From Posidoniimonas corsicana (GTDB lineage: Bacteria > Planctomycetota > Planctomycetia > Pirellulales > Lacipirellulaceae), in assembly GCF_007859765.1 (NCBI RefSeq), contig NZ_SIHJ01000002.1, forward strand, positions 744,001 to 808,000: 64,000 nucleotides of DNA, written 5' to 3'. Below the pieces are notes generated by a model. That model did not search any database, was not told the origin of the DNA, and saw nothing but the letters and a program-made list of their open reading frames with translations. Shown one piece after another: positions 1,993 to 16,893 of the stretch. Numbering within the stretch: position 1 is the first letter of the stretch; each line of letters begins with the position of its first letter. Position numbers and translations under genes: made by a program.

Positions 1993-3042
1993 ATGTTCGA
2001 CGGAAAGACTATCTTCGTAACCGGCGGCACCGGTTCGTTTGGCAACAGCTTCACGCGCATGGTGCTGGCCGAACACTCACCCGAGCGAGTGGTGGTGTTC
2101 AGCCGCGACGAGAAGAAGCAGCACGATATGCGGCTCGCTCTCGCCGACGAGCGGGTGCAGTTCTGCATCGGCGACATCCGCGACCGCGCGCAGGTGACCT
2201 CCGCCATGCGTGGCGCCGACTACGTCTTCCACGCGGCGGCCCTGAAGCAGGTGCCGTCGTGCGAGTTCTTCCCCTTCGAGGCGGTCCAGACGAACATCAT
2301 CGGCGCGCACAACGTGCTGGAGGCCGCCGAGGAGGTCGGCGTCCAGAAACTCGTCGTGCTGAGCACCGACAAGGCGGTCTACCCGGTCAACGCGATGGGG
2401 CAGACGAAGGCCCTGATGGAAAAGCTGATGCTCGCCAAGGCGCAGTCGTTCCAGTCCTGTTGCGCTACCTTCTGCGGCGTCCGGTACGGCAACGTGATGT
2501 GCTCTCGGGGCTCGGTGATCCCGCTGTTCATCGACCAGATTAAGGCGGGGCAACCCCTCACGGTCACCGACCCGAGCATGACCCGGCTGCTGCTGCCGCT
2601 CATCGAGGCCGTGCGGCTTGTCACCTTCGCGATGGAGAACGGGCAGCAGGGCGACGTCCTGGTCCAGAAGGCGACGGCGTCAACCGTGGAGGACCTCGCT
2701 CAGGCGTTGCTCAACCTGTTCGGCGCCGACAACGAGGTAAAGATTGTAGGCGTGCGTGCTGGAGAGAAGAAGCACGAGGTGCTCCTCACCCCAGAAGAGA
2801 TGCTCCGCGCCGAGGAATACGAGAACTACTACCGCGTCCCCTGCCGGGCCGGCCGAAACTACGAAGATTACTTCAGCCGAGGTGACCTGAAGGCCACCTT
2901 CATCAAGGACGGCTACACGTCGGAGAACGCGCGCCGACTGTCGGTCGCTGACATCGAAGACCTGCTGCTGAGCCTCCCCGAGGTGCAAGCAGAGCTGAAG
3001 ACCTGGCCAGCCGCCACCAAGCTCAAGAGGTTTGCCGCGTGA
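1993..3042 (+). CDS. UDP-GlcNAc 4,6-dehydratase/5-epimerase, CapE/FnlA type
   Basis: This is a short-chain dehydrogenase-like enzyme of 349 residues. The nucleotide-binding motif GGTGSFGNSF is at residues 11-20, and VVVFSRDEKKQHDMR is the strongly conserved CapE/FnlA signature. The active-site motif reads NAMGQTK, that is Met-XXX-Lys instead of Tyr-XXX-Lys, as in CapE/FnlA rather than FlaA1/PseB. The family makes the 4-keto-6-deoxy intermediate that starts UDP-N-acetyl-L-fucosamine synthesis. The stop codon overlaps the GTG of the next gene by 4 bp, and CapF- and CapG-like genes follow directly, so the three form one pathway unit. Confidence 0.9.
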   Translation: MFDGKTIFVTGGTGSFGNSFTRMVLAEHSPERVVVFSRDEKKQHDMRLALADERVQFCIGDIRDRAQVTSAMRGADYVFHAAALKQVPSCEFFPFEAVQTNIIGAHNVLEAAEEVGVQKLVVLSTDKAVYPVNAMGQTKALMEKLMLAKAQSFQSCCATFCGVRYGNVMCSRGSVIPLFIDQIKAGQPLTVTDPSMTRLLLPLIEAVRLVTFAMENGQQGDVLVQKATASTVEDLAQALLNLFGADNEVKIVGVRAGEKKHEVLLTPEEMLRAEEYENYYRVPCRAGRNYEDYFSRGDLKATFIKDGYTSENARRLSVADIEDLLLSLPEVQAELKTWPAATKLKRFAA

Positions 3043-4160
3043 CCCAACGCGTCATCGCCATAACCGGCCCCAACGGCTTCATCGCCAAGAGCCTGCGTGC
3101 TCGGCTCCAGGCCGACACGACGCTCGACGTGCGCCTCGTTCCCCGCGTCGCCTGGGACGATGAGCGGCGACTGGCCGAGCGGCTCGACGGGTGCGACGCC
3201 ATCTTCCACATCGCCGGCGTGAACCGCGGCGAGGACCACGCGGTCCGCGACGGCAACGAGGCGATGGCGAAGAAGCTCGTCGCCGCCTGCGATCAGAACG
3301 GGTCCCGCCCACACATCATCTTCAGCTCCACGACGCAGCGAGGGAACGGCACGCCGTACGGCGACGCCAAGCTGGCCGCTGAACGGACACTCTCCGACTG
3401 GTCGAAACGCACCGACGCCCCGTTGTCGATCGCCGTGCTCCCGAACGTCTACGGCGCGGGCTGTCGTCCGTTCTACAACTCAGTGGTCGCGACGTTCTGC
3501 CACCAGCTCGTCAACGGCGAGAAGCCGCAGGTGCACCAAGACCGCGAGGTTGAGTTCATCTGGGTTGGTGACGTAGTCGAGCAGCTGCACGCGATGCTCA
3601 GCGACCCGCCCTGCCCCACCGAGACGCTACGGCTGGAAGGCGCCGCGACGCTGCGTGTGGCTGAGCTGCTGAGCAAGCTGCAGGGCTACCGCCAGTCGTT
3701 CTTCCAGCGACACATCGTGCCCGACCTGAGTACCCACCTCGAGGCGACGCTGTACTCCACGTTCCTGTCGTACGTCGACCTGGAAGACCACCGGCACACC
3801 CCAGAGGTCAAAGCCGACGACCGCGGAGAGCTGTACGAGATCATTAAGCTCGCAACCGGCGGGCAGGTGTTCTTTTCGACCACCAAGCCCGGCGTGATCC
3901 GCGGCAACCACTTCCACACCCGCAAGGTCGAGTGGTTCTGCGTGCTTAAGGGAGAGGCGGTCATCCGGCTTCGTCCGCTGCACGGCGACTCGGTCAAGCA
4001 GTTCCGTGTCAGTGGCGACCAGCCCCAGTTCATCTCGATCCCGGTGCTTCACACCCACCACATCGAGAACGTGGGCGACGACGAGCTGCTCACCATGTTC
4101 TGGTGCAACGAGGTCTTCGACCAGTCGGACCCCGACACCTACTTCGAGCGGGTCGCCTAA
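3039..4160 (+). CDS. CapF/FnlB-like bifunctional reductase with C-terminal cupin (UDP-L-FucNAc pathway)
   Basis: The product has 373 residues, close to known CapF length. The N-terminal half is an extended SDR (ITGPNGFIAKSL at residues 8-19, then IFHIAGVNRGED). The last third is a cupin (GVIRGNHFHTRKVEWFCVLKGEA) with the metal-binding histidines in place. In CapF the cupin acts on the 3-position and the SDR domain reduces the 4-keto sugar to the talose form. The start is GTG at 3039, inside an overlap with the upstream stop codon, which implies translational coupling. It is followed by the CapG-like epimerase, completing the set. Confidence 0.9.
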   Translation: MTQRVIAITGPNGFIAKSLRARLQADTTLDVRLVPRVAWDDERRLAERLDGCDAIFHIAGVNRGEDHAVRDGNEAMAKKLVAACDQNGSRPHIIFSSTTQRGNGTPYGDAKLAAERTLSDWSKRTDAPLSIAVLPNVYGAGCRPFYNSVVATFCHQLVNGEKPQVHQDREVEFIWVGDVVEQLHAMLSDPPCPTETLRLEGAATLRVAELLSKLQGYRQSFFQRHIVPDLSTHLEATLYSTFLSYVDLEDHRHTPEVKADDRGELYEIIKLATGGQVFFSTTKPGVIRGNHFHTRKVEWFCVLKGEAVIRLRPLHGDSVKQFRVSGDQPQFISIPVLHTHHIENVGDDELLTMFWCNEVFDQSDPDTYFERVA

Positions 4161-4176
4161 CACACCCCGATTAAGT

Positions 4177-4195
4177 GCCGGGCTCAATGCCCGGC
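4177..4195. repeat. Short inverted repeat GCCGGGC-TCAAT-GCCCGGC in leader of capG-like gene
   Basis: Perfect 7-bp arms around a 5-nt loop lie 16 bp after the capF-like stop and just before the AGGAGGG ribosome-binding site of the next gene. It could be an RNA hairpin that attenuates or stabilises the transcript between the two genes. There is no T-run, so it is not an ordinary intrinsic terminator. Confidence 0.4.
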
Positions 4196-4216
4196 GCCGG
4201 CCGCCAGGAGGGCGCC

Positions 4217-5362
4217 ATGGCGTCACCACTGAAGATTATGACCGTCCTGGGCACCCGCCCAGAGATCATCCGCCTGTCGCGTGTCATGGCCTTACTGGAC
4301 CAGCACGTGGATCACAAGCTGGTGCACACAGGTCAAAACTCAGACTACGAGCTCAACCAGGTATTCTTCGAAGACCTGAAGGTGCGTCAGCCGGACTACT
4401 ACCTGGGCGTCGATCGTTCCTCGCTCGGACGGATCCTGGGGGACGTGCTGGTCAAGTCCGAGGAGATCTTCGTCGAGGAACGCCCCGATGCGGTATTGAT
4501 TCTGGGAGACACCAACAGCGCCTTCGCCGGCGTTATCGCCCGACGGATGAAGATCCCGCTCTACCACATGGAGGCCGGAAACCGCTGCTTCGACTTCAAC
4601 GTGCCGGAAGAGATCAACCGCCGCATCGTCGACCATATCAGCGACTTCAACCTGGTCTACACCGAGCACGCACGCCGCAACCTACTGGCCGAGGGGATTC
4701 ACCCCCGGAAGGTCTACCTGACCGGATCGCCAATGCGCGAAGTGCTGGACTCCTGCAAGCCCGAAATCTCGGCCTCAACGGTCCTCAACCGGCTTGGGCT
4801 TACGCCCGGCGAGTACCTGGTAGTAAGCCTCCACCGGGCCGAGAACGTCGATTCCAAGGACAATCTTGAACAACTGCTGAGGATCCTCAACACGCTCTGC
4901 CAGCGGTACAACCGCCCGCTAATCGTCAGCACGCACCCCCGCACACGGCAGAAGCTCGAGGCGTTGTCGCCCTCGGCGCTCGACGACACCGACAGCCGGG
5001 TGCGTTTCCTGCAGCCGTTCGGCTACCACGACTACGTCCGACTGCAGCAGGACGCGTTCTGCACGATCTCCGACAGCGGCACCATCAGCGAGGAGAGCTC
5101 GATCCTGGGCTTCCCGGCGGTCACCACCCGCACCGCAATGGAGCGCCCCGAAGCGATGGACACCGGCCACATCGTGCTGACCGGGATCGACGTGGATACG
5201 GTTGTCGAGTCGGTCGAGTTCGTCACCCGCAACAGCCAGCACTCCCGCGAGCACCTGATCGCCCCGGAATACCAGGTTACCAACACCTCTCACCGCGTCC
5301 TGAAGCTGATCCTTGGCACGGCCAAGCTCGGTCACCTGTGGGACGGCATCCGCGCAGCGTAG
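4217..5362 (+). CDS. UDP-FucNAc-forming 2-epimerase, CapG/FnlC type
   Basis: This is a WecB-fold epimerase of 381 residues. The start ATG at 4217 is chosen because a perfect AGGAGGG sits at 4206-4212; a GTG at 4175 would add 14 residues. Motifs are VLGTRPEIIRLSRVM, HTGQNSDYELNQVFFEDL, HMEAGNRCFDFNVPEEINRR and SLHRAENVD. The CFDFNVPEE stretch is characteristic of the CapG/FnlC branch, which converts the talose intermediate into UDP-N-acetyl-L-fucosamine, rather than of WecB. It completes the CapEFG set with the two genes upstream. Its end overlaps the upstream-most start of the fused glycosyltransferase gene by 25 bp. Confidence 0.9.
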   Translation: MASPLKIMTVLGTRPEIIRLSRVMALLDQHVDHKLVHTGQNSDYELNQVFFEDLKVRQPDYYLGVDRSSLGRILGDVLVKSEEIFVEERPDAVLILGDTNSAFAGVIARRMKIPLYHMEAGNRCFDFNVPEEINRRIVDHISDFNLVYTEHARRNLLAEGIHPRKVYLTGSPMREVLDSCKPEISASTVLNRLGLTPGEYLVVSLHRAENVDSKDNLEQLLRILNTLCQRYNRPLIVSTHPRTRQKLEALSPSALDDTDSRVRFLQPFGYHDYVRLQQDAFCTISDSGTISEESSILGFPAVTTRTAMERPEAMDTGHIVLTGIDVDTVVESVEFVTRNSQHSREHLIAPEYQVTNTSHRVLKLILGTAKLGHLWDGIRAA

Positions 5363-7746
5363 CTAGAACACGCCGCAGGCGAATTGTCACAGTGGTCCGA
5401 CACTCCCGAAAACCGGTCGCCTCTCAGCCCCGACGCGTCCTGATTGCGCACAGATACTTCTGGCCCGAGAACCTCAGCCTGTTCCCAGCGATGCTCAAGG
5501 ACATCGCCGCCGAGCACGCACGCCGGGGCGACAAGCTCACCGTATACACGACGACTTCAGCCAGCGATGTCGCGCGTCGCGCGTGGGCGGCAGAGCATGG
5601 AATTGAGCTGCTTGAGTTGGAGCTGCCCGCAGATCGAGGGCTTTCAACCGTCCGCAGGTCGTTGCACCTCCTCCGCTTCCTACTTGGGCTGTTGTACATC
5701 CTGACGCGGCGCCGGTTCGACCTTGTGATCGCGACCTCAAATCCACCGGTTGCGGCCGCCGCCCTGGTAAGAATCGCATCCCAACTGCGAGGCGCAGCCT
5801 ATGCCTACTACGTCCAGGACATCGTTCCCGAGATGCTTATGTGCAGCGCGAGCCGAGCCTCTCGCTGCGTAGGGCGAGTTACCAGATGGATCGACGGATG
5901 GAACGTGCGGTCAGCGGCGGTGACGATAACGTTGAGCAAGACAATGCGGCAGACCCTCCGCAGCCGAGGCTGCCAAGACGCATCCATCGAGGTGCTCCAG
6001 AACTTTGCCGTCGATGCTCCCTCGCCTGAAGAGAGCGACGACAGCAAAACAACAGCTATTCCGACGTTAGTTTTTGCCGGCAATCACGGCCAACTGCAGA
6101 ACTTGGAACACTTTCTCCGCTCAGTGAAGATTGCCTCGAAGAGCACCGCTTTCCGCGTCCTGATGCTGGGAGGGGGCAGCGAGAGAGCACGCCTTTCTCA
6201 AGTCGCACACGAGTTTCATCTAGACAATGTCGAGTTCGCCGGGGCCCTGCCGCGTTCCGAGGCTCAGCGCCGAATCGCCGCCTGCGACGCCGGGATCGTG
6301 GCGGCAGCACCTGGTCTGTTCCGCGTAGCCTACCCAAGCAAGCTGATTTCGTACGCGCTGGCCGGGCTTCCGTCGCTAGTGTTAACCGAGACCGGATCGG
6401 CCGAAGGCGATGAGATTGAATCACAGGGGCTCGGCGTCACGGCATCTCCTACCAACCCGCACCAAGCGGCCGTTGCGATTGAGAAGCTGGTTGGCCGTAT
6501 CACATGTGGCGAATCCACCAGGCACGATCTGTCTAGAACGGCGTCGTGGCTCTACTCCCGAGACGCATACCTCCACACCTACTTCAGTATACCACAACTC
6601 AGCGTCCCATCCCACCAAGGCAGTGCGATGAACTACTCTAATGATAGGCTGCAGTTCGACACCAGCCGCTTTGACTTCGCCAAGCTCGTGCTAGACGAGA
6701 TCAACCGCCACCAACGGGCGATCGGATTGCAGCAAGTAGAGGAGCTGCGCCAGGTGCATAAAGTAGACGGTATCGCACAGCACCTAGAAGCGCACCGCCA
6801 GCATCTGTTCACACTATTCCGGACCCCGGCGTTTCAGAGACTGTACCGCGAGTTCGGGAAACAGCTGATCGACGATCACTTCACGACGGAAGCGGTGATC
6901 CAGAAGACGCCCACCGTGCGTATTCAGCTCGCAGGTGGAAACTCGGTTAGCTTCCATTCCGACGCGTGGTACGGGCACGGAAGTCGGGTTTGCAGCTTCT
7001 GGCTGCCCCTCACGACCGTGTCCGGCGCAAACAGCCTTCAGATGGCGAGAGATATCGATGAGTCGCGCCAATTCCTCAGTCAGATCGCAGAAGAACAAAT
7101 GGACCTCGACGAGATAAACGACAAGGCGGCCGCGCTTTGCGATCCGGTCGAGGCCGCCTTTGGCGACCTGATCGTGTTCAATGGCGACATGGTGCACGGC
7201 ACCGTCCACAACGCAACTCCAACGTCGCGTGTTTCATTCGACTTCCGAATAGCGGAATCCGTGACTGACATTGGAATGAAGCCCGCGGCCAACTTCTACA
7301 CATACGAACAACTGTCGACACCGGTGAGCGACCATGCCTGCGGCGAGATTGCCCGACGCCCGCGGCGCCGGTCGCTCATGTATTCAGGCGCCTGCCGAGG
7401 GGTAAGCGCTAAGTCTCAGCTAGTGTTCTTGAACGAGTACGCAAGGATCAACGACATCGATATCGTGGGCAGTGAGTCTGAAATCGTCGTCTTCGACTAC
7501 GCACCCGTACTCCAGAAGTACGCCAAGAACCCGCCTTCTGGCATCGACTCCGTACTCCTGTTCAGTGTCGACCTCCTGCCCGCCGATCCGGACATACGTC
7601 GCCGGATCTATGAGAACGCTATCGCCAGCAAAGTCGCGTTGCTGTTCGGCGCCGAAGACGTCTGCCTCTCGGACGAATGCGACATTGCGAAGGTCGAAAC
7701 GCTCGTGACCCACCCACAGCCTGCGCCAACCCTATCTGCGGCATAG
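5338..7746 (+). CDS. Three-domain fusion: GT4 glycosyltransferase + 2OG-Fe(II) oxygenase-like + LIC12192-like domain
   Basis: One uninterrupted frame of 802 codons. Residues 33-430 are a GT4 glycosyltransferase (AHRYFWPENLS at 37-47, LVFAGNHGQLQNLEHFL, and the C-terminal lobe ending YSRDAYLHTY), closest in style to WbuB, the transferase usual beside FnlABC. Residues 431-675 resemble a non-haem Fe(II)/2-oxoglutarate oxygenase, with metal ligands H540-x-D542 (FHSDAW), H620 (GDMVHGT) and R631 as the likely 2OG contact. Residues 678-795 resemble the sporadic carbohydrate cluster LIC12192 family (LLFSVDLLPADPDIRRRIYE). These last two family names are from memory. The start is uncertain: GTG at 5338, or GTG at 5392 which removes the overlap with the gene before. 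An internal ATG at 6628 preceded by AAGG could give a separate oxygenase product. Confidence 0.75.
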   Translation: MGRHPRSVARTRRRRIVTVVRHSRKPVASQPRRVLIAHRYFWPENLSLFPAMLKDIAAEHARRGDKLTVYTTTSASDVARRAWAAEHGIELLELELPADRGLSTVRRSLHLLRFLLGLLYILTRRRFDLVIATSNPPVAAAALVRIASQLRGAAYAYYVQDIVPEMLMCSASRASRCVGRVTRWIDGWNVRSAAVTITLSKTMRQTLRSRGCQDASIEVLQNFAVDAPSPEESDDSKTTAIPTLVFAGNHGQLQNLEHFLRSVKIASKSTAFRVLMLGGGSERARLSQVAHEFHLDNVEFAGALPRSEAQRRIAACDAGIVAAAPGLFRVAYPSKLISYALAGLPSLVLTETGSAEGDEIESQGLGVTASPTNPHQAAVAIEKLVGRITCGESTRHDLSRTASWLYSRDAYLHTYFSIPQLSVPSHQGSAMNYSNDRLQFDTSRFDFAKLVLDEINRHQRAIGLQQVEELRQVHKVDGIAQHLEAHRQHLFTLFRTPAFQRLYREFGKQLIDDHFTTEAVIQKTPTVRIQLAGGNSVSFHSDAWYGHGSRVCSFWLPLTTVSGANSLQMARDIDESRQFLSQIAEEQMDLDEINDKAAALCDPVEAAFGDLIVFNGDMVHGTVHNATPTSRVSFDFRIAESVTDIGMKPAANFYTYEQLSTPVSDHACGEIARRPRRRSLMYSGACRGVSAKSQLVFLNEYARINDIDIVGSESEIVVFDYAPVLQKYAKNPPSGIDSVLLFSVDLLPADPDIRRRIYENAIASKVALLFGAEDVCLSDECDIAKVETLVTHPQPAPTLSAA

Positions 7747-7758
7747 CCCGCGCCCGCC

Positions 7759-8640
7759 ATGGACTCACCACCAATTGTCATCCTCGGCGCCGCTCGATCG
7801 GGAACCAGGTTCCTTCGATCGGTGATTGCTGCGTCGAGAGCGGTCGGCGCGACGCCGTACGACATGAATTTCGTCTGGCGGCACGGCTCAGAGAGCTGTC
7901 CGCACGATGCTCTGCCTGCCGCGTGGGTGACTGAAAGGTCTGCAAGCTTCATTCGAAATCGGCTGCGCGATGCTGCTGGCTTGCGCACCGATGATGCCAG
8001 ATCACTGGTAGAGAAGACCGTCAGCAATACGTTGCGGGCGCCCTATGTGCAGCGTGTGTTGCCAGCCGCTCGGTTCATCCATCTCATCCGTGACGGTCGT
8101 GACGTCGTTGAATCCTCAATGCGGTGCTGGCGAGATCCGCCGCGTGCGAGTTATCTGTTGAAGAAGCTCCGGGCCTACCCCCTAGGTTCCTGCCTCCCCT
8201 ACGCGCTTAAGCACGGTCTGCGTACAGCACGTCGGGCGGCCGGTTTCTCCGACGCGGTATCGTCTTGGGGCCCCCGCTATCCCGGCATCGATCAAGACTA
8301 TGCTAACCACCCACTGGCTCTGGTTTGTGCCCGTCAGTGGCAGTGCTGCCTAGACTCGTTCGACGAGGCACGAGGGCGAATCTCACCGGACAAACTCCTC
8401 GAAATCCGCTACGAAGACCTTGTGACCCATCCGTCCCAAACTGCGTTGAAGCTCGCTGAGTGGCTGCAACTGCCAGACGCTCACACGGTCGTGAGCTACG
8501 CGACAACGCACGCGAACGACTCAAGCATCGGCGGGCGACGCCGCCTTTCATCGGACGACCAAGCGACTGTTTCTCGTGCACTAGGGTCAACTCTCGAGCG
8601 TCTCGGCTACGGCACTTGCGATTCCGACATAGCTGCCTGA
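7759..8640 (+). CDS. Sulfotransferase family protein
   Basis: A 293-residue protein with both PAPS-binding signatures: the 5'-phosphosulfate loop ILGAARSGTRFLRS at residues 8-21 and the 3'-phosphate motif IHLIRDGRDVVESS near residue 110. A late KLLEIRYEDLVTHP motif is also typical of the Sulfotransfer_3 group. The enzyme would move sulfate from PAPS to a carbohydrate hydroxyl or amine. It begins 12 bp after the triple-fusion gene and sits mid-operon, so a sulfated repeat unit is the likely outcome. The acceptor cannot be told from the sequence. Confidence 0.85.
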   Translation: MDSPPIVILGAARSGTRFLRSVIAASRAVGATPYDMNFVWRHGSESCPHDALPAAWVTERSASFIRNRLRDAAGLRTDDARSLVEKTVSNTLRAPYVQRVLPAARFIHLIRDGRDVVESSMRCWRDPPRASYLLKKLRAYPLGSCLPYALKHGLRTARRAAGFSDAVSSWGPRYPGIDQDYANHPLALVCARQWQCCLDSFDEARGRISPDKLLEIRYEDLVTHPSQTALKLAEWLQLPDAHTVVSYATTHANDSSIGGRRRLSSDDQATVSRALGSTLERLGYGTCDSDIAA

Positions 8641-8688: not shown

Positions 8689-9837
8689 ATGCAAGTTCCC
8701 TTCTCGCCCCCCAGCATCACCGATGTCGAGATCGCAGAAGTTCTTGACACACTGAGTTCTGGGTGGATCACAACTGGCCCCAAGACCCGCGTCTTCGAGC
8801 AGGCGTTTTGCGAGCGTGTCGGGGCCAAGGCCGCGGTCGCTGTCAACTCTTGCACGGCGGCTCTGGCGCTCGCACTCAAGCTGCATGAGATCGGGCCTGG
8901 GGACGAAGTCATAACCACAACACTCACCTTCACGTCGACGGTCAACGTAATCGAACACACAGGCGCCAGGCCCGTGCTCGTCGACGTCTGCCCCGACACG
9001 CTCAACATCGACCCGGAGCAGGTCGAGCGGTCCATAACATGTCGCACCAAAGCGGTAATCGCGGTTCACTACGCTGGGCACCCGGCCGATATACCTGCTC
9101 TACAGGCTATATGCGATAGCCACGGATTGAAGCTGATCGAAGACGCGGCGCACGCATTGCCCGCCGCTATCGGCGGCAGGACTATCGGTGGAACAGGCAA
9201 TCTGACCACGTTCAGCTTCTACGCCACCAAGAACCTCGCAACCGGCGAGGGCGGCATGCTCACCGGCCCGCCCGAACTGCTCGAGCGTGCCAGGACTCTT
9301 AGTCTTCATGGGATGAGCCGCAATGCCTGGAACCGGTACGGGGCCAACGGAGACTGGTTCTACGACGTGCTTGAACCCGGCTTCAAGTACAACATGAGCG
9401 ACCTTCAGGCCGCATTGGGTGTCGCGCAGCTCAAACGCTTGGACGACCTGCAGGCCCGCCGCGCCGAGATTTACAACAGGTACAACAACGTATTTGCACG
9501 CGTCGACGGTGTTCAGACGCCGGTCCTCCGGTTGGGTTGCGACCACGCACACCACCTCTACGTGCTCCGGATGCAAGACCATAACGACCGAGACGAGCTA
9601 GTAAACCGGCTTCGAGAATATAGCGTGAGCACCTCCGTGCACTTCATCCCAGTGCACATCCACAAGTACTACCGAGATCGCTACGGGTACTCGCAAAACG
9701 ACTTTCCTGTGGCGTTTGACAGCTATCAACGGATGGTTAGCCTGCCGCTGTCGCCGGCGTTAACCGACGATCAAGTGACGTACGTTGCCGACAAGGTCGC
9801 CTGCGTTATCGCCGGCGCCAGAAAGGCGGCTGCGTAG
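8689..9837 (+). CDS. DegT/DnrJ/EryC1/StrS (ArnB-like) sugar aminotransferase
   Basis: A 382-residue PLP enzyme. The N-terminus has PFSPPSITDVEIAEVLDTLSSGWIT, the cofactor loop has EDAAHALPA, and the Schiff-base lysine is in FSFYATKNLATGEGGML. The family transfers an amino group to a 3- or 4-keto nucleotide sugar. The only 4-keto-sugar maker in view is the CapE-like dehydratase at 1993, whose product resembles the substrate of PseC-type aminotransferases. This gene could therefore branch off the FucNAc route, or use a keto sugar made elsewhere. The next gene begins 3 bp after the stop. Confidence 0.88.
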   Translation: MQVPFSPPSITDVEIAEVLDTLSSGWITTGPKTRVFEQAFCERVGAKAAVAVNSCTAALALALKLHEIGPGDEVITTTLTFTSTVNVIEHTGARPVLVDVCPDTLNIDPEQVERSITCRTKAVIAVHYAGHPADIPALQAICDSHGLKLIEDAAHALPAAIGGRTIGGTGNLTTFSFYATKNLATGEGGMLTGPPELLERARTLSLHGMSRNAWNRYGANGDWFYDVLEPGFKYNMSDLQAALGVAQLKRLDDLQARRAEIYNRYNNVFARVDGVQTPVLRLGCDHAHHLYVLRMQDHNDRDELVNRLREYSVSTSVHFIPVHIHKYYRDRYGYSQNDFPVAFDSYQRMVSLPLSPALTDDQVTYVADKVACVIAGARKAAA

Positions 9838-9840
9838 GCG

Positions 9841-11733
9841 ATGGTCCGATTGCTGGACATCTTGTTCGCCTCTATCGGCTTGGTCGTGCTTTCTCCTCTC
9901 CTGGCAGTGGCGGCCATTGCTGTGCGGACAGACAGCCCTGGCCGTCCGTTCTTCCGCCAGCAGCGGATAGGCAAGCATGGAACGCCGTTCTGGCTCTATA
10001 AAGTCCGAACGATGACCTCCACGCAACGTGGGGATCAGGCTCCTCAGATAACAGTGGCGGGAGATCAGCGAGTCACGCGGGTTGGGGCCATCCTTCGTCG
10101 CACTAAGATCGACGAGCTGCCACAACTCTGGAATGTCGTCCGCGGCGACATGAGCCTCGTAGGCCCTCGCCCGGAGGTTCCAAGGTATGTTGAGCTGTAT
10201 GACGACAATCAACGGCGGGTCCTCGCAGTGCGTCCGGGGATCACCGACTTGGCATCATTAGAGTACCTTGACGAGGAGGCGATCCTCGCGGAATCACCGG
10301 ATCCCGAGAGGCACTACCGCGACGTCGTGATGCCAGAGAAGCTTGCTATTAACTTTCGCTACACCGATCATCCAACCGTCTACGCGTACCTGTCGATCCT
10401 AGCTTCCACGCTAAAGGCTGTGGCATTTCGGGCGCTGGCGACGGGAGTACCTACGCAGCTCGGGCTGAGATCAGTTTTGAGTAGCGGGCTACTGGTGCTG
10501 GTGGGAGCCGGAATCTGGCGGGGCGGGGTCGCGTTGGCGGTTGTAACGGCCGGTATGCTGCTTGGCGCCGACCAGTTGGGGCTGATTGGGTGGGTCCAGG
10601 CGACAGCCGGATCAGCCGGCGTGTTCTTCGGAGCGTCCGCAGGTCTTGTGCTCACCAAGCTACTTGCGGAGACGCGACGCCCTCGACGCCGCCTCGCGGT
10701 GGTAGGTGGCGCAAGCGTTGCGGCAGTTGGATTGACTTGCCTAATGTCGGCACTGTTGATCGTCGGCGCTCCCTGGCTGTCAGAGGTTGGCGTCGGAAGC
10801 GACGGGGCGACACCCGTCCTCCGTTGCGCCGCGATTCTGGCGATCGGCTCCACGGTTAGCATGGCAATGGCTGGAGCCCTCGTCGGCCTCCGCATGGGGC
10901 GTTCGCTCGTATCCTCCGCGTTGCTCGCTTCCAGCGTGGTCGTGATCGTCACGCCAGTGCTTGCTTCCGTGTGGGGCGTCACCGGAGTTGTCTCCGGAAT
11001 GGCGGTGGGAACTCTCTGGTACGCCGGTTGTTTGGCCACCGCCGTACGGCGTCGGCTTGGCGGCTGGCCGAACGCCGCAGACTCCCTCGCCGAACTCTGG
11101 CCACTCATGAAGCGGATCGGGCCGGCGTCACTGCTGTTCGCGGTGGCCGCGCCAACCGACTTGCTGTGCATGACAATCATGGCAGCCTCGACAGACATCG
11201 CCGAGCTCGGCGTCTACGTCGCTGCGAATCAGGTCTTCCTGCTGTGTCGCCTAGTGATCGCCGCCGTGAGCTCGGCTGCGCTGTCTGAAATGTCGGCCTC
11301 CCAGCACTCCGCCTCAAGATTGCACCGCCGACTCGCGATGGCGCCGGTGTTTGTCGGCATGCCTCTCGCGATACTCGGATCAGTAGCGGCGGGCTGGGCG
11401 CCTGTGGTTATGGGAGACGGGTTTCAGTCGCTCGATGTGCTCGTTCGCTGGATGATGTTGACCGCACTCGCGTTCGCTGCCAGCCAAGCGTGGGAGAAGG
11501 TCGCGGTAGCCAACGATCAGCTCTGGACGGCCGCGGGCGCATCCGTAGCGTGGTCAGTGGTCTGCGTGCTTGGGTTCTCCGCTTCTGGCAGGGGCTCCGT
11601 CGACCTCGCGATGTGGCGTACCCTAGCCTACACGTTCCAATTTGCAGTTCTGTTCCTAGCGGTCAACGTTTGTGGAGGCAGCGAGTCCGAGCCAAGGGAG
11701 GTTGAGCTCTCAAGTCCGAGGGCCGCCGCATGA
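9841..11733 (+). CDS. Fusion of initiating phosphoglycosyl transferase and Wzx-like flippase
   Basis: A single frame of 630 codons. Residues 1-200 are a bacterial sugar transferase (monotopic PGT): the membrane hairpin [23 protein letters not shown], the catalytic Asp-Glu in [12 protein letters not shown] (D91, E92), [12 protein letters not shown] at 105-116 and [13 protein letters not shown]. Residues about 205-610 are highly hydrophobic, with roughly 10-12 membrane segments and Wzx/MATE-like features ([17 protein letters not shown], and [20 protein letters not shown]). The first part would load a sugar phosphate on undecaprenyl phosphate and the second would flip the finished lipid-linked unit. 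No stop or frameshift lies between them. ATG 9841 follows the previous stop by 3 bp; the 3' end overlaps the next gene by 4 bp. Confidence 0.82.
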
Positions 11734-13172
11734 ACTCTACAGCACAACTGCGCCGGCAAGGCACGAAGCTATTGAGGCGGCGGACTACTCGATCCCTTAG
11801 TATCTATAGTGGCGCCGGCCCCAGCGCTCGCCTAACTGGGGCCAGCCACACCTCCGCGCCGTCGCTAGCGTCGTTAGCCGTGCCGCTAATGTTTGCTCCG
11901 GTATTCTGGGGAACACACTCTTTACGGATCAACCTGGGCTACTTATGCGGCGGTGGAATCCTTGCAGAAGAGTTTGCAGTCCACGCCAGTCTGCTTGTCT
12001 GCGGGCTGGGTGCCTTCTTTCTCTTCGTCGCTGGAGGAGTCCAGCGGAGCGTGCGATGGTTCGCGATCTACGCAGCCTGCTGGCTGACTCTCTCCTGCCT
12101 TTACGGACTCCGAATCGAATCCGGATGGCCGAACGTCTTGTTCTATCTTCAGACGCTGACCCCCGTCTTCGCACTGGCCGCAGGTAACCGGATCGCTTCC
12201 TCGCCACGCGACGTTCAGCGACTTAATAGGCTGACTCCGTTCGTCACCGTTGCGTCGCTTACGTTGATCTGGGTGTTTGCGATCACTAAGTTCGGAACCG
12301 GGGCATTGCTGCACGAGCGAATGAGGGTGATCCACGACCTCGCGGTTCTCATACCCCAGTACCAGAACTACTACCCATTCTGCGTGGTCATCAGCTTCAA
12401 CTTCGCACTGGCAAACTACCTTTACGGCCAGCGTTCGTCGCGCACGCTCACGGTGCTCGCGGCGCACGGGCTGATCCTCCCCCTTTGCTGGTCAAGAACC
12501 GCTCTGCTTGGGTTCGCGGCATCCGCCCTTGTTCAGTCGATAGTGAGGTCGCTTGCGTCGCGCGGCGGGGGCGGACGCATTCTCTCGCTCGCGTTCTGCG
12601 CGATCGCCGCGGCCCCTTTTGTCTGGTCCGCGATGGGGGTCACCGAGCGGATGGAGGCGATCGGCGCTGCCGACGTCGCAGACTCCGACTACCGACGGTG
12701 GGACTACCTGCTAGAAGGATTAACGCGGTCTTGGAACGCGCCACTCTTTGGCGACGCGTTCGTTCCAGCTAGAGACACCGCCGCGTCCCATGCGGCTGAC
12801 GCGGTGCCTCGCCTGTTCCACGCCCACAACCAATACGTGGACTTGCTGCTGCGGGGGGGATGGTTGTACGCGATTGCTCTCGTGGCGTTTGGTGTGCAAG
12901 CGGCTCGCAGGTTGTGGTCCGTACTCCGCGCACGAAGCGATACGATCCCTACGTCGGTTCGTGCGTCGGCATCCGCGTCTCTCGGAACGCTTGCCGCGGC
13001 CGCGGTCGGGGCCAACTTCCAACTCTTCTTCATACAGCTGCAAACCGCGACGCCGCTCTTCTTTGTCCTAGGGGCGGCCTACCGCCTCGCGCAGTTACAT
13101 CGATCGGGGAGGTCACGGATCTCGTTTCAGAAAGCACCAGAAACGAGGCGGCGTTTAAGTCCAGTCGCCTAA
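11730..13172 (+). CDS. O-antigen ligase/polymerase-like membrane protein (Wzy or WaaL family)
   Basis: A 480-residue polytopic membrane protein with about ten hydrophobic segments and the periplasmic-loop motif FHAHNQYVDLLLRGGWLYAI near residue 363, the usual Wzy_C/O-antigen ligase hallmark. It would join repeat units or attach the chain to its acceptor on the periplasmic face. The first 50 residues are basic and serine-rich and look cytoplasmic. The ATG overlaps the previous stop (ATGA at 11730-11733), so it is probably coupled to the PGT-flippase fusion. Its last 18 bp overlap the end of the convergent subtilase gene. Confidence 0.85.
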   Translation: MNSTAQLRRQGTKLLRRRTTRSLSIYSGAGPSARLTGASHTSAPSLASLAVPLMFAPVFWGTHSLRINLGYLCGGGILAEEFAVHASLLVCGLGAFFLFVAGGVQRSVRWFAIYAACWLTLSCLYGLRIESGWPNVLFYLQTLTPVFALAAGNRIASSPRDVQRLNRLTPFVTVASLTLIWVFAITKFGTGALLHERMRVIHDLAVLIPQYQNYYPFCVVISFNFALANYLYGQRSSRTLTVLAAHGLILPLCWSRTALLGFAASALVQSIVRSLASRGGGGRILSLAFCAIAAAPFVWSAMGVTERMEAIGAADVADSDYRRWDYLLEGLTRSWNAPLFGDAFVPARDTAASHAADAVPRLFHAHNQYVDLLLRGGWLYAIALVAFGVQAARRLWSVLRARSDTIPTSVRASASASLGTLAAAAVGANFQLFFIQLQTATPLFFVLGAAYRLAQLHRSGRSRISFQKAPETRRRLSPVA

Positions 13173-16100
13173 CAGGTTGAACACCCCGTCGTAGGCGCCG
13201 ACGGTCGCCGAGTTGACGCCGCCATTCTCCCCGCGAGCATCCACTTTCCCAAACCCGCTTGCTTGAAGCGTGACACCGCCCGACACGAGCGTAGCGTCGG
13301 CCCCTGATACCGACAGCATATCGGTGCCTGCCCAGTCTGTAAGCAAGGCGATGTCACTTCCGTACTGGCTGAACGCCTGCGAGTGGGCAAAGCCAGATGC
13401 GTAGTTCAGGTATCCGGCCCCCGACATGTGCGAGGTCGCCCGCTTTGCGTTGAAAAAGTCGTTCCCCGCTGAGTCGTAGAAGACGATCGAGTCCGTGCCG
13501 CCGCCGGAGTAGTTGAGCGCCTTCGAGAAACCATTGGCCGTACGTGTGAACCCGCCGCCGGTCATCTGAGAAGTGGTTGGGGTCGCTACGACGGACTCGT
13601 TACTGACCGTACCGTAGAAGATAGCGAGATCGCTCGCCCCGCTAGCGTTCGCCGTCACCTCTCCGAACCCTTCCGCATACTGAAAGCGGTTCGCGTTCGC
13701 CAGGTACGCGCGATTGCTGAATGAGGTAAACGTGTCGACGCTCCCCGATGCGCCACTGAACACCGCCGTGTCCGAGCCACCGTTTCCGAACGCGTACGTA
13801 CGCGTGAAGCCGGATGCGTTCAACGAAGTGTTAGCCATCGTGAGATTGGCAAAGGCTTGATCGGACACGAACACATCATCACCGGCGTCACCGTGGAAGA
13901 AAGATGAGTCGGCCCCCGAAGATGAGGTGACGTCAACGGCATCGAACCCTTCGGAGTACAGGAAGGTCGCCCCCCCGGACAGGTAGGCTCGATCTGAGAA
14001 GCCCTGGAACGCGTCGTTACCAGATGTGTCTCCAATCACCGCGGAGTCCGTCCCACCTGACGCATACCCGTAGGCCCGCACAAACCCCTCGGACCGGTTA
14101 GTGTATCCTGCACCAGTCATCGAGGCGTAGACGACGTTCGCGTGGAACACCTCATCGCCGGCGGTGTCGTAGAAGGTGGCTCGGTCCGCGCCACCGGTGG
14201 AGACCGCGACAGTGCTAGAAAACCCCTCGGTGTAGTTGAAGAATCCGATGCCAGAAAGGTAGGCTCGGTCGGAGTATGCGACGAAGATGTCGTTCTGAGC
14301 CGAGTCGTGCAACATGGCGGAGTCAGCTCCGCCATTTCCGATCACGTTGATCCTCTCTGAGTTCTCCACGACAACCGACTTCGCCCCTCCTGTGACCGAG
14401 GCGCTGTGCTTAGACATGACGACCGTCTCGTCGCCGCTCGTTCCATACACCGTAACGGAGTCGTTCCCGTTTGCTGCGTCGATCGCGACATCGGGGTAGG
14501 CGGACCCGCTGAGCCCGTACCCCACACCGTTAAATGCTATCGAGAGCGTTTCTCCTAGACGCACTACAATATTGTCGTCTCCCGCGGATCCAACCAAAGC
14601 CGCTTGACCATTCACAACGCTGAGTGCATTCGTGAGTCTCAGATCCAGGTCACTGCTAGTACCATCAACCCGAAGGTACAACTCCTGCCCAGCCGTCGCA
14701 ATGACATCAATGCGGTCTGACGCCCCGCCCTGCTTGATCAGGTTCATGCTGGCGTCGTAGATTGAGAGGCCAACCGATTCAGCGCCGCTTACCCCCTGCA
14801 CCGTCAGGAAGCCCGCCCGGCCGGCCTCAATGCGGAAGAAGGACTCCCCGGCGATGCTGATCCCGGACCTGGTCTCTTGGACCGAGGCGGCGCCCCAGTC
14901 GGTGTAGGTGAAGGTCGACTCGGCCGAGAACGACAGGTCGTAGTACCCCAGCCCGTCGGAGCTCGACAGGGCGACCGTGTACTGCTGGCCGGCCACGACG
15001 TTCAGGGTGTAGGTGGCGCCGCCGTCGCTGCTCCAGCCATCGGCGCCCATGCCGTCCCAGGCCGCCGCCAGCTGATGCGTGGTGTTCTGGGCGTAGAAGG
15101 TCACCGTGCCGGTGGCGCCGGCGGTGAACGTGAAGTAGTCGGAGTCGGTGAGCCGCTCGATGTGGCCGCTCATCGGGGCGGCGTTGGCCTGCGGCCCGGC
15201 GCTGATCGTCCCCAGGTTGTAGGCCTCTTCCACCGAGGACCCAAAGTCGTCCTCGGGCATCAGGGCGTCGATGGCCGCCTGCACGTTCAGCCGGCTGTAC
15301 CAGGCGTCGGAGGCCGTGTCGTAGAACGACTCGGCGGTGGCCATCATGTGGTCGAAGATCGTGTCCTGGGTGATGCCGGTCATGCCGACAAACTCCATCG
15401 CCTCGCGGATGATGACGCTCGCGCCGGCCACGTACGGCGCCGCCATGCTGGTGCCGGAGAAGTTGGCCCAGTCGTCGGTTACCCCGTTGTTGTTGCCCGC
15501 GTAGTCGGGGATGGTGCTGTAGATGTAGCGGCCCGGGGCGGCGATGGCCCGCCCGTGCCGCTGGCTGAAATAGCTCAGGAAGCCGCTGTCGTCCGACGAC
15601 ATCACCGGCACCACGTGCGGGCTGGCGGCGGGGTAGCTGAGCCCGGGCTCGTTGTACGAGGTGTAGCTGTTCCCGGCCGACACCGAGACGAAGATCCCGT
15701 CGGCCTTGAGCTGTGCGAACTCGTCCTCCAGCATGCCCCACGCGGGGATCGAGCTGGAGTTCCAGCTGGTCCCCAGCGAGAGGTTGACCGCGGTGATCGG
15801 GTTCTCGAACGCGTTGCGGTTCTCGTGCACCCACCGCAGCGCGCTCTCGACCCAGCTGAAGTAGCCGGCGCCGTTGTCGGCGAACACCCGGAGACCGACC
15901 AGGTCGACCCCAGGCGCGACTCCGGAGCGGTTGCCGTCGTCGGCGCCGACGATCCCGGCAACGTGGGTGCCGTGGGACCCCTCGGTTCCGTCGTCGTACG
16001 GGTCGGAGTCGCTCTCGGTAAAGTCGTAGCCGCCAACCACGCGGTAGTTGCTGCCCAGCCCGCCCCCCAGGGCGTAGTGGTCGTAGGCGATGCCGGAGTC

Positions 16101-16484
16101 GATCACCGCCACCGTCTGGCCGATGCCAGAGAAGCCGTAGCTCGCCTTCACTTGGTCCATGCCGGTCTGTTGGTGGGCGCTGGCCAGCGACTTCTCGATC
16201 TGGTCGAGCTGCTCCTCAAGCGAGACGACCGGTTGCTCGTCTAGCCAGAAGTCGGCATTGGGGTCGGCGTGGTGCGAGTAGTCGGCGCCGCCCGGCTGCG
16301 TCAGCGCGCCGGCGCCGTGGTGCATGAGCGGCGGCGCGTCCTCCTGCAGCGCGTGGTGCGAGATCGCCCCGCCGAGCAGGCCTCCGAGCGGGTCGGCGGA
16401 CATCACTTCGCGCGACTCGAGGGTCTCGACCTGGCTGCGCCGTGCGGTGCTGCGGCGTTGCTGATTTGGTGACTTCTTCGACAT
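13155..16484 (-). CDS. Secreted subtilase (S8) with PPC-like domain and 46-residue tandem repeats
   Basis: ATG at 16482-16484 is chosen because MSKKSPNQQRRS leads into QVETLESREVMSAD, a common N-terminal pattern of large exported planctomycete proteins; the frame stays open 111 codons further without a protein-like sequence. The 1109-residue product has the S8 triad D129 (AVIDSGI), H171 (GSHGTHVAG) and S346 (SGTSMAAP), with N272 in SAGNS for the oxyanion hole. Residues about 415-525 look like a pre-peptidase C-terminal domain. From 675 to 1091 an Asp/Asn recurs every 46-47 residues in a unit resembling GGADSA.F.DSAGDD.F, a tail of about nine repeats. Such tails are presumably structural or adhesive; their function is unknown. 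It ends 18 bp inside the convergent polymerase gene. Confidence 0.88.
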   Translation of the reverse strand: MSKKSPNQQRRSTARRSQVETLESREVMSADPLGGLLGGAISHHALQEDAPPLMHHGAGALTQPGGADYSHHADPNADFWLDEQPVVSLEEQLDQIEKSLASAHQQTGMDQVKASYGFSGIGQTVAVIDSGIAYDHYALGGGLGSNYRVVGGYDFTESDSDPYDDGTEGSHGTHVAGIVGADDGNRSGVAPGVDLVGLRVFADNGAGYFSWVESALRWVHENRNAFENPITAVNLSLGTSWNSSSIPAWGMLEDEFAQLKADGIFVSVSAGNSYTSYNEPGLSYPAASPHVVPVMSSDDSGFLSYFSQRHGRAIAAPGRYIYSTIPDYAGNNNGVTDDWANFSGTSMAAPYVAGASVIIREAMEFVGMTGITQDTIFDHMMATAESFYDTASDAWYSRLNVQAAIDALMPEDDFGSSVEEAYNLGTISAGPQANAAPMSGHIERLTDSDYFTFTAGATGTVTFYAQNTTHQLAAAWDGMGADGWSSDGGATYTLNVVAGQQYTVALSSSDGLGYYDLSFSAESTFTYTDWGAASVQETRSGISIAGESFFRIEAGRAGFLTVQGVSGAESVGLSIYDASMNLIKQGGASDRIDVIATAGQELYLRVDGTSSDLDLRLTNALSVVNGQAALVGSAGDDNIVVRLGETLSIAFNGVGYGLSGSAYPDVAIDAANGNDSVTVYGTSGDETVVMSKHSASVTGGAKSVVVENSERINVIGNGGADSAMLHDSAQNDIFVAYSDRAYLSGIGFFNYTEGFSSTVAVSTGGADRATFYDTAGDEVFHANVVYASMTGAGYTNRSEGFVRAYGYASGGTDSAVIGDTSGNDAFQGFSDRAYLSGGATFLYSEGFDAVDVTSSSGADSSFFHGDAGDDVFVSDQAFANLTMANTSLNASGFTRTYAFGNGGSDTAVFSGASGSVDTFTSFSNRAYLANANRFQYAEGFGEVTANASGASDLAIFYGTVSNESVVATPTTSQMTGGGFTRTANGFSKALNYSGGGTDSIVFYDSAGNDFFNAKRATSHMSGAGYLNYASGFAHSQAFSQYGSDIALLTDWAGTDMLSVSGADATLVSGGVTLQASGFGKVDARGENGGVNSATVGAYDGVFNLLGDWT

Positions 16485-16893
16485 GGGGTCGATCGTCTCC
16501 CCTGCCAGGCGAGTGCCGAGGCAGCGGGCTTGCCGCCCACGCCGGGGAGCGGGGGCGAGAGGATGAGCGGGGCGACGCGGCGCGATCATCGCGGCCGTCG
16601 TCTGGGGGTGAAAAGGGGGACCGGCGCCCAGTGGCCCGTAGCGGCCGCTCAGTCCTTGCCCGATGAGCGTCCGCTTTGCCGGTCTATGAAACCCTAGGTC
16701 AGGATTTGGCGCAGTCTGGCGGCCGCAAAGAGATTCACGGCTCGCCGGCCCCGGTTGCCTGACAAGCGGGCTGTGAGGGCTAAGAAGGCCGGGGCTGTTG
16801 CAGACCGGCATCACCACGCCCGGACGGCCGATGCCCTATCGCAACGCGAACCAAACCTTGGTGTGGTTCAATCGCCACACAGAGCTAGGCGCC
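16485..16893. other. Upstream region of subtilase gene, no gene seen
   Basis: About 409 bp between the subtilase start and the end of the PH-like gene. A GGGGAG about 12 nt before the ATG may be the subtilase ribosome-binding site. No promoter could be assigned with confidence and the open frames have no protein-like features. Confidence 0.45.

Follow-up and report, generated by a model that had tools for sequence, protein, structure and literature searches.

Does one gene of Posidoniimonas corsicana encode a natural three-part sugar enzyme, and what would the third part of such a protein do? The question is raised by an open reading frame at positions 5338–7746 (+ strand) of a 64,000-nucleotide (nt) stretch of contig NZ_SIHJ01000002.1 (positions 744,001–808,000; hereafter the window), in which a sequence-only reading had seen a glycosyltransferase of N-acetylfucosamine (FucNAc) type fused to an Fe(II)/2-oxoglutarate (2OG) oxygenase and a LIC12192-like domain. 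The frame of 802 codons was unbroken, as that reading held: it is open from GTG 5338 to the stop (802 amino acids; 958 from stop to stop), and the given sequence has no stop or frameshift at 6600–6640, the place singled out as critical. Which codon starts the gene is uncertain; GTG 5338 lies inside the 3' end of the upstream FnlC-like gene (4175–5362), and GTG 5392 is the sole alternative among in-frame ATG, GTG and TTG codons within the first 44. Pfam, NF007640 and homologues delimit a WcaI/WbuB-like GT-B domain of glycosyltransferase family 4 (GT4; residues 1–418, 5338–6591). A 12-residue joint (6592–6627) separates the end of transferase homology from the start of oxygenase–LIC homology. 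At ATG 6628–6630 (M431), near the start of a free-standing relative (L072), begins the oxygenase domain (PhyH, TIGR04324-like; residues 431–658, 6628–7311), as defined by profiles, alignment and identity to L072, and a LIC12192/TIGR04323-like domain follows (residues ~676–794, 7363–7719), defined by TIGR04323, hhalign and a fold match. All these features lie on the + strand. Sequence comparison indicates that the oxygenase–LIC unit is real and conserved, and that its fusion with the transferase rests on one genome. From structural modelling, the LIC12192 domain appears to have the fold of a serine-recombinase catalytic domain without the recombinase arginines and, as aligned, the serine.

The oxygenase domain was recognised by two profiles. 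PhyH (PF05721) matched residues 481–631 with 27.0 bits, above the gathering cut-off of 22; L072 scored 16.5, under it. The NCBIfam model TIGR04324 matched residues 454–655 with 66.8 bits (E = 2e-18), under the curated cut-off of 150 that marks membership, and matched L072 with 56.6 bits. The HxD residues H540 and D542, the distal histidine H620 and R631 were found where the sequence-only reading had placed them, and they align with the metal triad and 2OG arginine of canonical TIGR04324 proteins, one of which (L073a) has His at the R631 column. When a model of residues 429–802 was searched with Foldseek, the oxygenase half returned the Fe(II)/2OG dioxygenases TlxIJ, SptF and AndA (E of 0.03 and above), and the oxygenase profile gave a weak phytanoyl-CoA dioxygenase row among PDB sequences (E = 0.016). 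This would probably be an iron enzyme that oxidises a sugar. It resembles the TIGR04324 oxygenases in matching over 200 residues, in its HxD...H...R residues and in having a LIC12192 partner directly behind it; it differs in its score, in its ~23% identity to a canonical member, in its fusion to the LIC partner and a transferase, and in its fnlABC cassette. A further PhyH-like oxygenase, whose TRVSFDFR stretch is close to the window's, was seen amid sugar genes on a viral-collection contig (L081:7788–8468), with no LIC match in the 16 kb.

Directly behind this part and in the same frame, TIGR04323 matched residues 689–790 (33.4 bits, E = 3.5e-8), under the curated membership cut-off of 55. Both profiles proposed by the sequence-only reading as a check of the C-terminal parts thus gave significant matches below curated cut-offs, and the RRRIYE signature was at residue 754, as it had stated. 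The domain shares with the TIGR04323 family the profile match, the gene order and the position behind an oxygenase. It differs in its lower score, in being fused, and in lacking the E[YH]xMP and LH[FA]A[LV]E motifs of most members aligned.

That the two domains belong together is suggested by L072, a 366-amino-acid protein of genome G969, from another family of the same order, which carries oxygenase and LIC in one chain. It is 40% identical to the window protein over 349 columns (residues 429–775), starting near window M431. Divergence between the two at codon positions one, two and three was 0.48/0.36/0.66 in the oxygenase and 0.49/0.41/0.74 in LIC, highest at third positions in both; with the identity to an independent genome, this argues against a chance feature. 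L072 lies downstream of its own fnlA, fnlB, fnlC and a short-chain dehydrogenase/reductase (SDR) gene; a transferase homologue lies apart from it on the other strand (28% identity).

Such proteins are seldom met. Residues 431–802 had no match in 58 other genomes. TIGR04324 matched 27 of 296 genomes of the order at E 1e-5, one of them above cut-off, and this search led to L072. Three of the 27 were inspected, namely G969 (L072), G1024 (L073) and G046 (L078, a weak oxygenase match with no LIC); the matches in the other genomes scored 26.7–31.8 bits. A two-sequence profile (A3) found only the genome of the window and a canonical member among 392 genomes of the phylum, and only G969 among 72 genomes of its family. 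No relative was found on plasmids with the L005 LIC, L005 oxygenase or L072 queries, nor in phages with L072. For the count of genomes that the sequence-only reading had called for, the triple fusion therefore stands at one and the oxygenase–LIC fusion at two. Across the genomes searched, the two-domain enzyme is rare and conserved between two of them, and the three-domain protein occurs in a single one.

More commonly, the two parts are separate genes, as had been stated beforehand. Canonical pairs were identified by TIGR04323 matches above cut-off in 1/392 genomes of the window's own phylum (the same genome accounts for 1/29 in the class of G122), in 6/398 of the phylum of G449 (Dyella) and in 3/244 of the phylum of G456 (Gloeobacterales), with 0/14 in one further genome set. 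Two more, in G1024, were found via the oxygenase, their LIC being recognised by phmmer, and another lies on a viral-collection contig (L112). In all 13 pairs LIC is a separate gene that overlaps the oxygenase gene; L065–L069 and L112 are nearly identical, so there are fewer than 13 independent pairs. Counted from the first start codon, the overlap was 4–34 nt on the same strand in 12/12 LIC genes; in L112 this count gives 101 nt, and a LIC start at ATG 3976 gives 8 nt. Transketolase genes were present in at least 8 of 11 canonical loci; none was found at L072, or among the nine window proteins scanned with Pfam. The steady pairing, together with the two fused cases, suggests that the oxygenase and LIC work together as a single enzyme. 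Two of these loci had further features: L073 (G1024:C94:1-12385) holds two different oxygenase–LIC pairs on one 12-kb contig, one per strand, and in L112 a WbuC-family cupin gene (4977–5615; TIGR04366, 128.8 bits) stands behind the pair and a methyltransferase gene.

The NCBIfam model gives LIC12192 no function, and the fold of the domain was examined by profile–profile comparison. An alignment of 11 LIC sequences matched one of 29 resolvase domains from relatives with an hhalign score of 31.8 (P = 9.6e-5, probability 58.5, 82 columns), and eight canonical LIC sequences by themselves gave 29.0. Among 70 other open-reading-frame families, an automated set drawn from frames around the loci and hence partly non-coding, no decoy exceeded 17.6, and reversed controls gave 12.1, 12.5 and 9.5. 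Smaller LIC subsets scored lower (window plus L072, 23.7, best decoy 18.9; L076 plus L073b, 18.7). The result depended on the resolvase alignment: a poor 14-row set with at least one wrong-strand row gave 16.0 and 23.7, against 29.0 and 31.8 for the cleaned 29-row set. Taken alone, the hhalign score is suggestive, not final.

Structural comparison pointed in the same direction. An AlphaFold model of window residues 429–802 was built from 4 alignment rows (mean predicted local distance difference test, pLDDT, 62.2), with ten-residue means of 46–89, mostly above 60, over model positions 251–370. The best match in the VIA comparison was 3guv (Z = 11.2, root-mean-square deviation 2.7, 104 residues), aligned to model positions 248–356, which are residues 676–784. 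Rows 1–23 (Z = 6.9–11.2) were all serine recombinases except row 14, a 'putative DNA binding protein'; Z had fallen to 6.7 by the first unrelated row, and rows 1–14 had Z of at least 8.2, values under 8 being ones that may reflect only a common arrangement. Foldseek likewise placed 3bvp and 3guv first for the LIC part, 3bvp_B (E = 9.5e-4) being the single match under 0.001. A model of mean pLDDT 62.2 thus has the recombinase catalytic-domain fold, which describes the third part better than the label 'LIC12192-like' first given to it.

The recombinase arginines were not retained: those of DRL(S/G)R have no counterpart at the matching columns of any of the 11 LIC sequences (window, L072 and nine others). 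No Ser occupies the nucleophile place in either of two alignments, whose register differs there; most members have a Ser one residue away (Ala in L065 and its near-copies), at a position of uncertain register. PF00239 gave no row at E up to 10 on eight LIC proteins or domains and L072, and among PDB sequences the LIC profile found nothing convincing. LIC therefore resembles the serine recombinases (PF00239) in modelled fold and in a co-linear profile alignment, and differs from them in its missing arginines and, as aligned, nucleophile Ser, and in its place in a sugar gene cluster. With the recombinase arginines gone, the fold would most likely act as a partner, structurally or in docking. Among the canonical LIC proteins, one has a weak match to Pox_F16 (PF04708; E = 0.025, under cut-off). 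We know of no link between poxvirus F16 and sugar enzymes. Passages of PMC4304020 describe F16 as an inactivated serine recombinase, and it keeps the recombinase fold without catalysis, as LIC would; unlike LIC, it is viral and nucleolar.

Three proteins with TIGR04323 matches were rejected as LIC members: L007, a coiled-coil-like protein, and L008, a serine recombinase, both from the window's own phylum, and L074, in which a resolvase-like domain is joined to HDOD. They are also the best non-members found by the LIC profile (L074, E = 4.9e-8; L008, 0.01; L007, 0.017). The serine-recombinase domains of L008 and L074, both weak TIGR04323 matches, were clues to the fold. The L074 protein (9085–10299, 404 amino acids) has the resolvase-like domain at its N-terminus (PF00239, 35.6 bits), and by eye it lacks the YxRxS serine motif.

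The transferase half contains a GT4 N-terminal domain, in agreement with the sequence-only reading. Glyco_trans_4_4 (PF13579) matched residues 54–222 with 56.8 bits against a gathering cut-off of 29.7, and Glyco_transf_4 was also above cut-off. The WcaI-type model NF007640 gave 63.8 bits, under the cut-off of 276 for WbuB/WcaI membership. Homologues of this half were found in 9 of 58 other genomes (25–32% identity, open frames of 417–596 amino acids), with matches ending at query residue 382–417. On plasmids the full window protein matched 42 records; the 20 listed all fall on the transferase half. Among the matches was an E. coli plasmid-borne WbuB (24.8% identity), and genes of FnlA, FnlB/WbjC and FnlC type stand directly upstream, which bears out the FucNAc setting first proposed. 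Passages of PMC5560731 identify WbuB as an L-FucNAc transferase and fnlABC as the uridine diphosphate (UDP)-L-FucNAc route, with related passages on fnlABC and WbuB in PMC5156936. The fnlABC context allows the guess that this is probably a WbuB/WcaI-type transferase using an L-FucNAc donor. The GT4 domain and the position behind fnlC are as in such transferases; the ~25% identity, the NF007640 score and the C-terminal extension are not.

To place the fusion in context, six of the nine genomes with a transferase match, all from the window's own family, were compared for synteny. In all six cassettes the sulfotransferase gene follows the transferase gene directly (a gap of at most 31 nt, or an overlap); fnlA, fnlB and fnlC lie upstream in five, and fnlA only in the sixth. 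At E 1e-5 these six cassettes gave no match to oxygenase or LIC. Relative to them, the window cassette has ~1.1 kb extra between transferase and sulfotransferase, and the simplest reading of this alignment is that the transferase gene gained an oxygenase–LIC gene on its downstream side.

Whether that gene is also joined to the transferase depends on the joint. A TGA in the +1 frame (6629–6631) overlaps the ATG at 6628 as ATGA, AAGG lies 7 nt upstream of this ATG, and L072 begins at nearly the same methionine. This arrangement, and the lack of a second triple fusion among the genomes searched, would also fit two overlapping genes, transferase and oxygenase–LIC, in which an error in one base, or a frameshift of recent origin, mimics a fusion; the oxygenase–LIC part by itself would then, with the same rather low probability, be the natural two-domain enzyme. 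Transferase homology, however, continues in frame to residue 415–418 of 430 in four of five homologues compared (to 369 in L121), no base run at the joint is longer than three, and most cassette neighbours give near full-length domain matches, so that the assembly does not look error-rich. We consider the two-gene alternative unlikely but serious, and infer that the transferase/oxygenase–LIC fusion is natural.

The explanation we favour as a whole, with about even confidence, is that of a sugar-transferase/oxygenase/dead-recombinase-partner gene of a FucNAc glycan cassette, joined in frame by insertion. The gene would belong to a lipid-linked (Wzx/Wzy-type) glycan cassette that makes UDP-L-FucNAc. 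Its N-terminal half would be a GT-B transferase, probably placing L-FucNAc on an undecaprenyl-diphosphate-linked acceptor, and its C-terminal half a two-domain sugar oxygenase made of the Fe(II)/2OG domain and LIC12192. The latter, with recombinase fold and no recombinase catalysis, would be the fixed partner of the oxygenase, acting for example in dimer formation, folding or substrate docking. A unit of ~1.1 kb would have been inserted behind the transferase gene of an fnlABC–transferase–sulfotransferase cassette and then joined in frame. The oxygenase would most likely hydroxylate the FucNAc-bearing sugar immediately before or after its transfer; with a transferase from this cassette tethered to it, the simplest guess is that a FucNAc-bearing intermediate is oxidised near the transfer step. 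The identity of the sugar, the timing of oxidation and the partner role of LIC are the inferred parts of this scheme.

Several observations weigh against it. Both curated cut-offs, for TIGR04324 and TIGR04323, were missed. A single genome has the triple fusion, and one base gained or lost, naturally or in assembly, would account for the joint. The relative L072 has no transferase attached; tethering thus seems not to be needed, which suggests that it is optional, and oxidation of a glycan still held by the transferase, as the sequence-only reading proposed, stays a conjecture. For the fold, an automatically aligned LIC family scored only 21.3 with the resolvases, behind the 23.6 of an unrelated family (71 families). 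The 30 best rows of a search with a resolvase sequence profile include no LIC protein, so the recombinase link rests on profile–profile and fold comparison, and the coiled-coil protein L007 scores with the LIC profile about like a real recombinase. The model behind the fold match has only 4 rows and its modest mean pLDDT, and for a canonical LIC protein an AlphaFold model from 2 rows was too poor to use (mean pLDDT 45.5). Finally, canonical cassettes often carry a transketolase gene, so their sugar may differ.

A different order of reactions would leave the gene structure as it is. The oxygenase might act first, making or altering an acceptor hydroxyl or the UDP-sugar for the transferase, as in lysyl hydroxylase/glycosyltransferase proteins. 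In collagen-modifying enzymes the oxygenase acts before the transferase; the mimivirus bifunctional protein is presumably L230, and its human counterpart LH3. These collagen enzymes act on protein, however, and L072 adjoins nucleotide-sugar genes, a position compatible with either order. The presence of oxygenase and transferase in one chain speaks for this order, and there is precedent for a transferase and a 2OG oxygenase in one protein: a passage of PMC9614988 compares the mimivirus oxygenase domain with human LH2, 'also a bifunctional enzyme'. For oxidation near or after transfer, a passage of PMC8533242 offers KdoO, which hydroxylates 3-deoxy-D-manno-oct-2-ulosonic acid (Kdo) already placed in lipopolysaccharide, after the Kdo transferase. 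KdoO is likewise an Fe(II)/2OG oxygenase, and its target sugar is already part of a bacterial glycan; the sugar is different, and the comparison is one of function. Oxidation ahead of the transferase is, in our judgement, improbable without being far-fetched.

We think it quite unlikely that the LIC domain has a catalytic role of its own, such as sugar binding or a cysteine reaction at C686, in place of that of an inactive partner. The two fused proteins share a Cys near the recombinase serine position (YSGAC and YSNSC), and LIC is accompanied by an oxygenase in every case found; the Cys is seen in just these two sequences, canonical members aligned lack it there, and the register at that strand differs between methods. 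Very unlikely is a decayed transferase half serving as a mere anchor for the oxygenase: window PSKLISY has Ser where plasmid WbuB (PSKIFEC) has the Glu usual at that position in GT4 enzymes, but the position varies among other aligned proteins, L072 included, the GT4 profiles score above cut-off and the PSK motif is retained. This comparison leaves aside the genome's own paralogues L002 and L003, whose rows were in wrong frames.

The genes around the frame, all on the + strand, are those of a glycan cassette. Upstream lie a non-hydrolysing UDP-N-acetylglucosamine (UDP-GlcNAc) 2-epimerase (WecB; 743–1873; TIGR00236, 434 bits, above cut-off), an FnlA-like UDP-GlcNAc 4,6-dehydratase/5-epimerase (1993–3042; TIGR04130, 393.4 bits, under the cut-off of 730), an FnlB/CapF/WbjC-like reductase (3039–4160; PF14667, 154.9 bits; NF047837, 257.1 bits, under the cut-off of 500) and the FnlC-like 2-epimerase (PF02350, 303.9 bits; TIGR00236, 244.1 bits), which gave phmmer scores of 574–667 bits to the third fnl gene in five of the six relatives. 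Downstream come the sulfotransferase (7759–8640; PF13469, 84 bits, and synteny), a DegT aminotransferase (8689–9837; PF01041, 421.4 bits), a phosphoglycosyl transferase with a Wzx-like membrane part (9841–11733; PF02397, 179.7 bits; PF01943, 19.9 bits, under the cut-off of 28.2) and a possible Wzy polymerase (11730–13172; PF04932, 26.6 bits, under the cut-off of 31.7). The joining of the PF02397 domain to a weakly Wzx-like part gives a protein of 630 amino acids; one relative (L122, G011) has a 755-amino-acid protein that starts with PF02397, and the phosphoglycosyl transferases of the five others have 200–234 amino acids. Beside the cassette, a 1220-amino-acid frame on the – strand (13155–16817) looks by eye like a secreted subtilisin-type protease with repeats.

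What is new here is the assignment of the LIC12192 domain to the serine-recombinase fold, which we regard as the most interesting result. Among the papers searched, none was found on the LIC12192, TIGR04323 and TIGR04324 sporadic carbohydrate cluster families, or on an inactive serine recombinase with a dioxygenase in polysaccharide biosynthesis. Extended to the family, and with a confidence just short of even, the whole of LIC12192 would consist of former serine-recombinase catalytic domains that gave up DNA chemistry and became the obligate partner of a sugar Fe(II)/2OG oxygenase, combined here with a transferase into a single-chain add-and-oxidise enzyme. A recombinase fold, paired with one oxygenase in the cases seen, would give LIC12192 a concrete and testable role as a partner subunit. 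Assays and crystallography may profit from the single-chain proteins that the fused forms offer, and a first substrate to try is suggested by the fnlABC setting.

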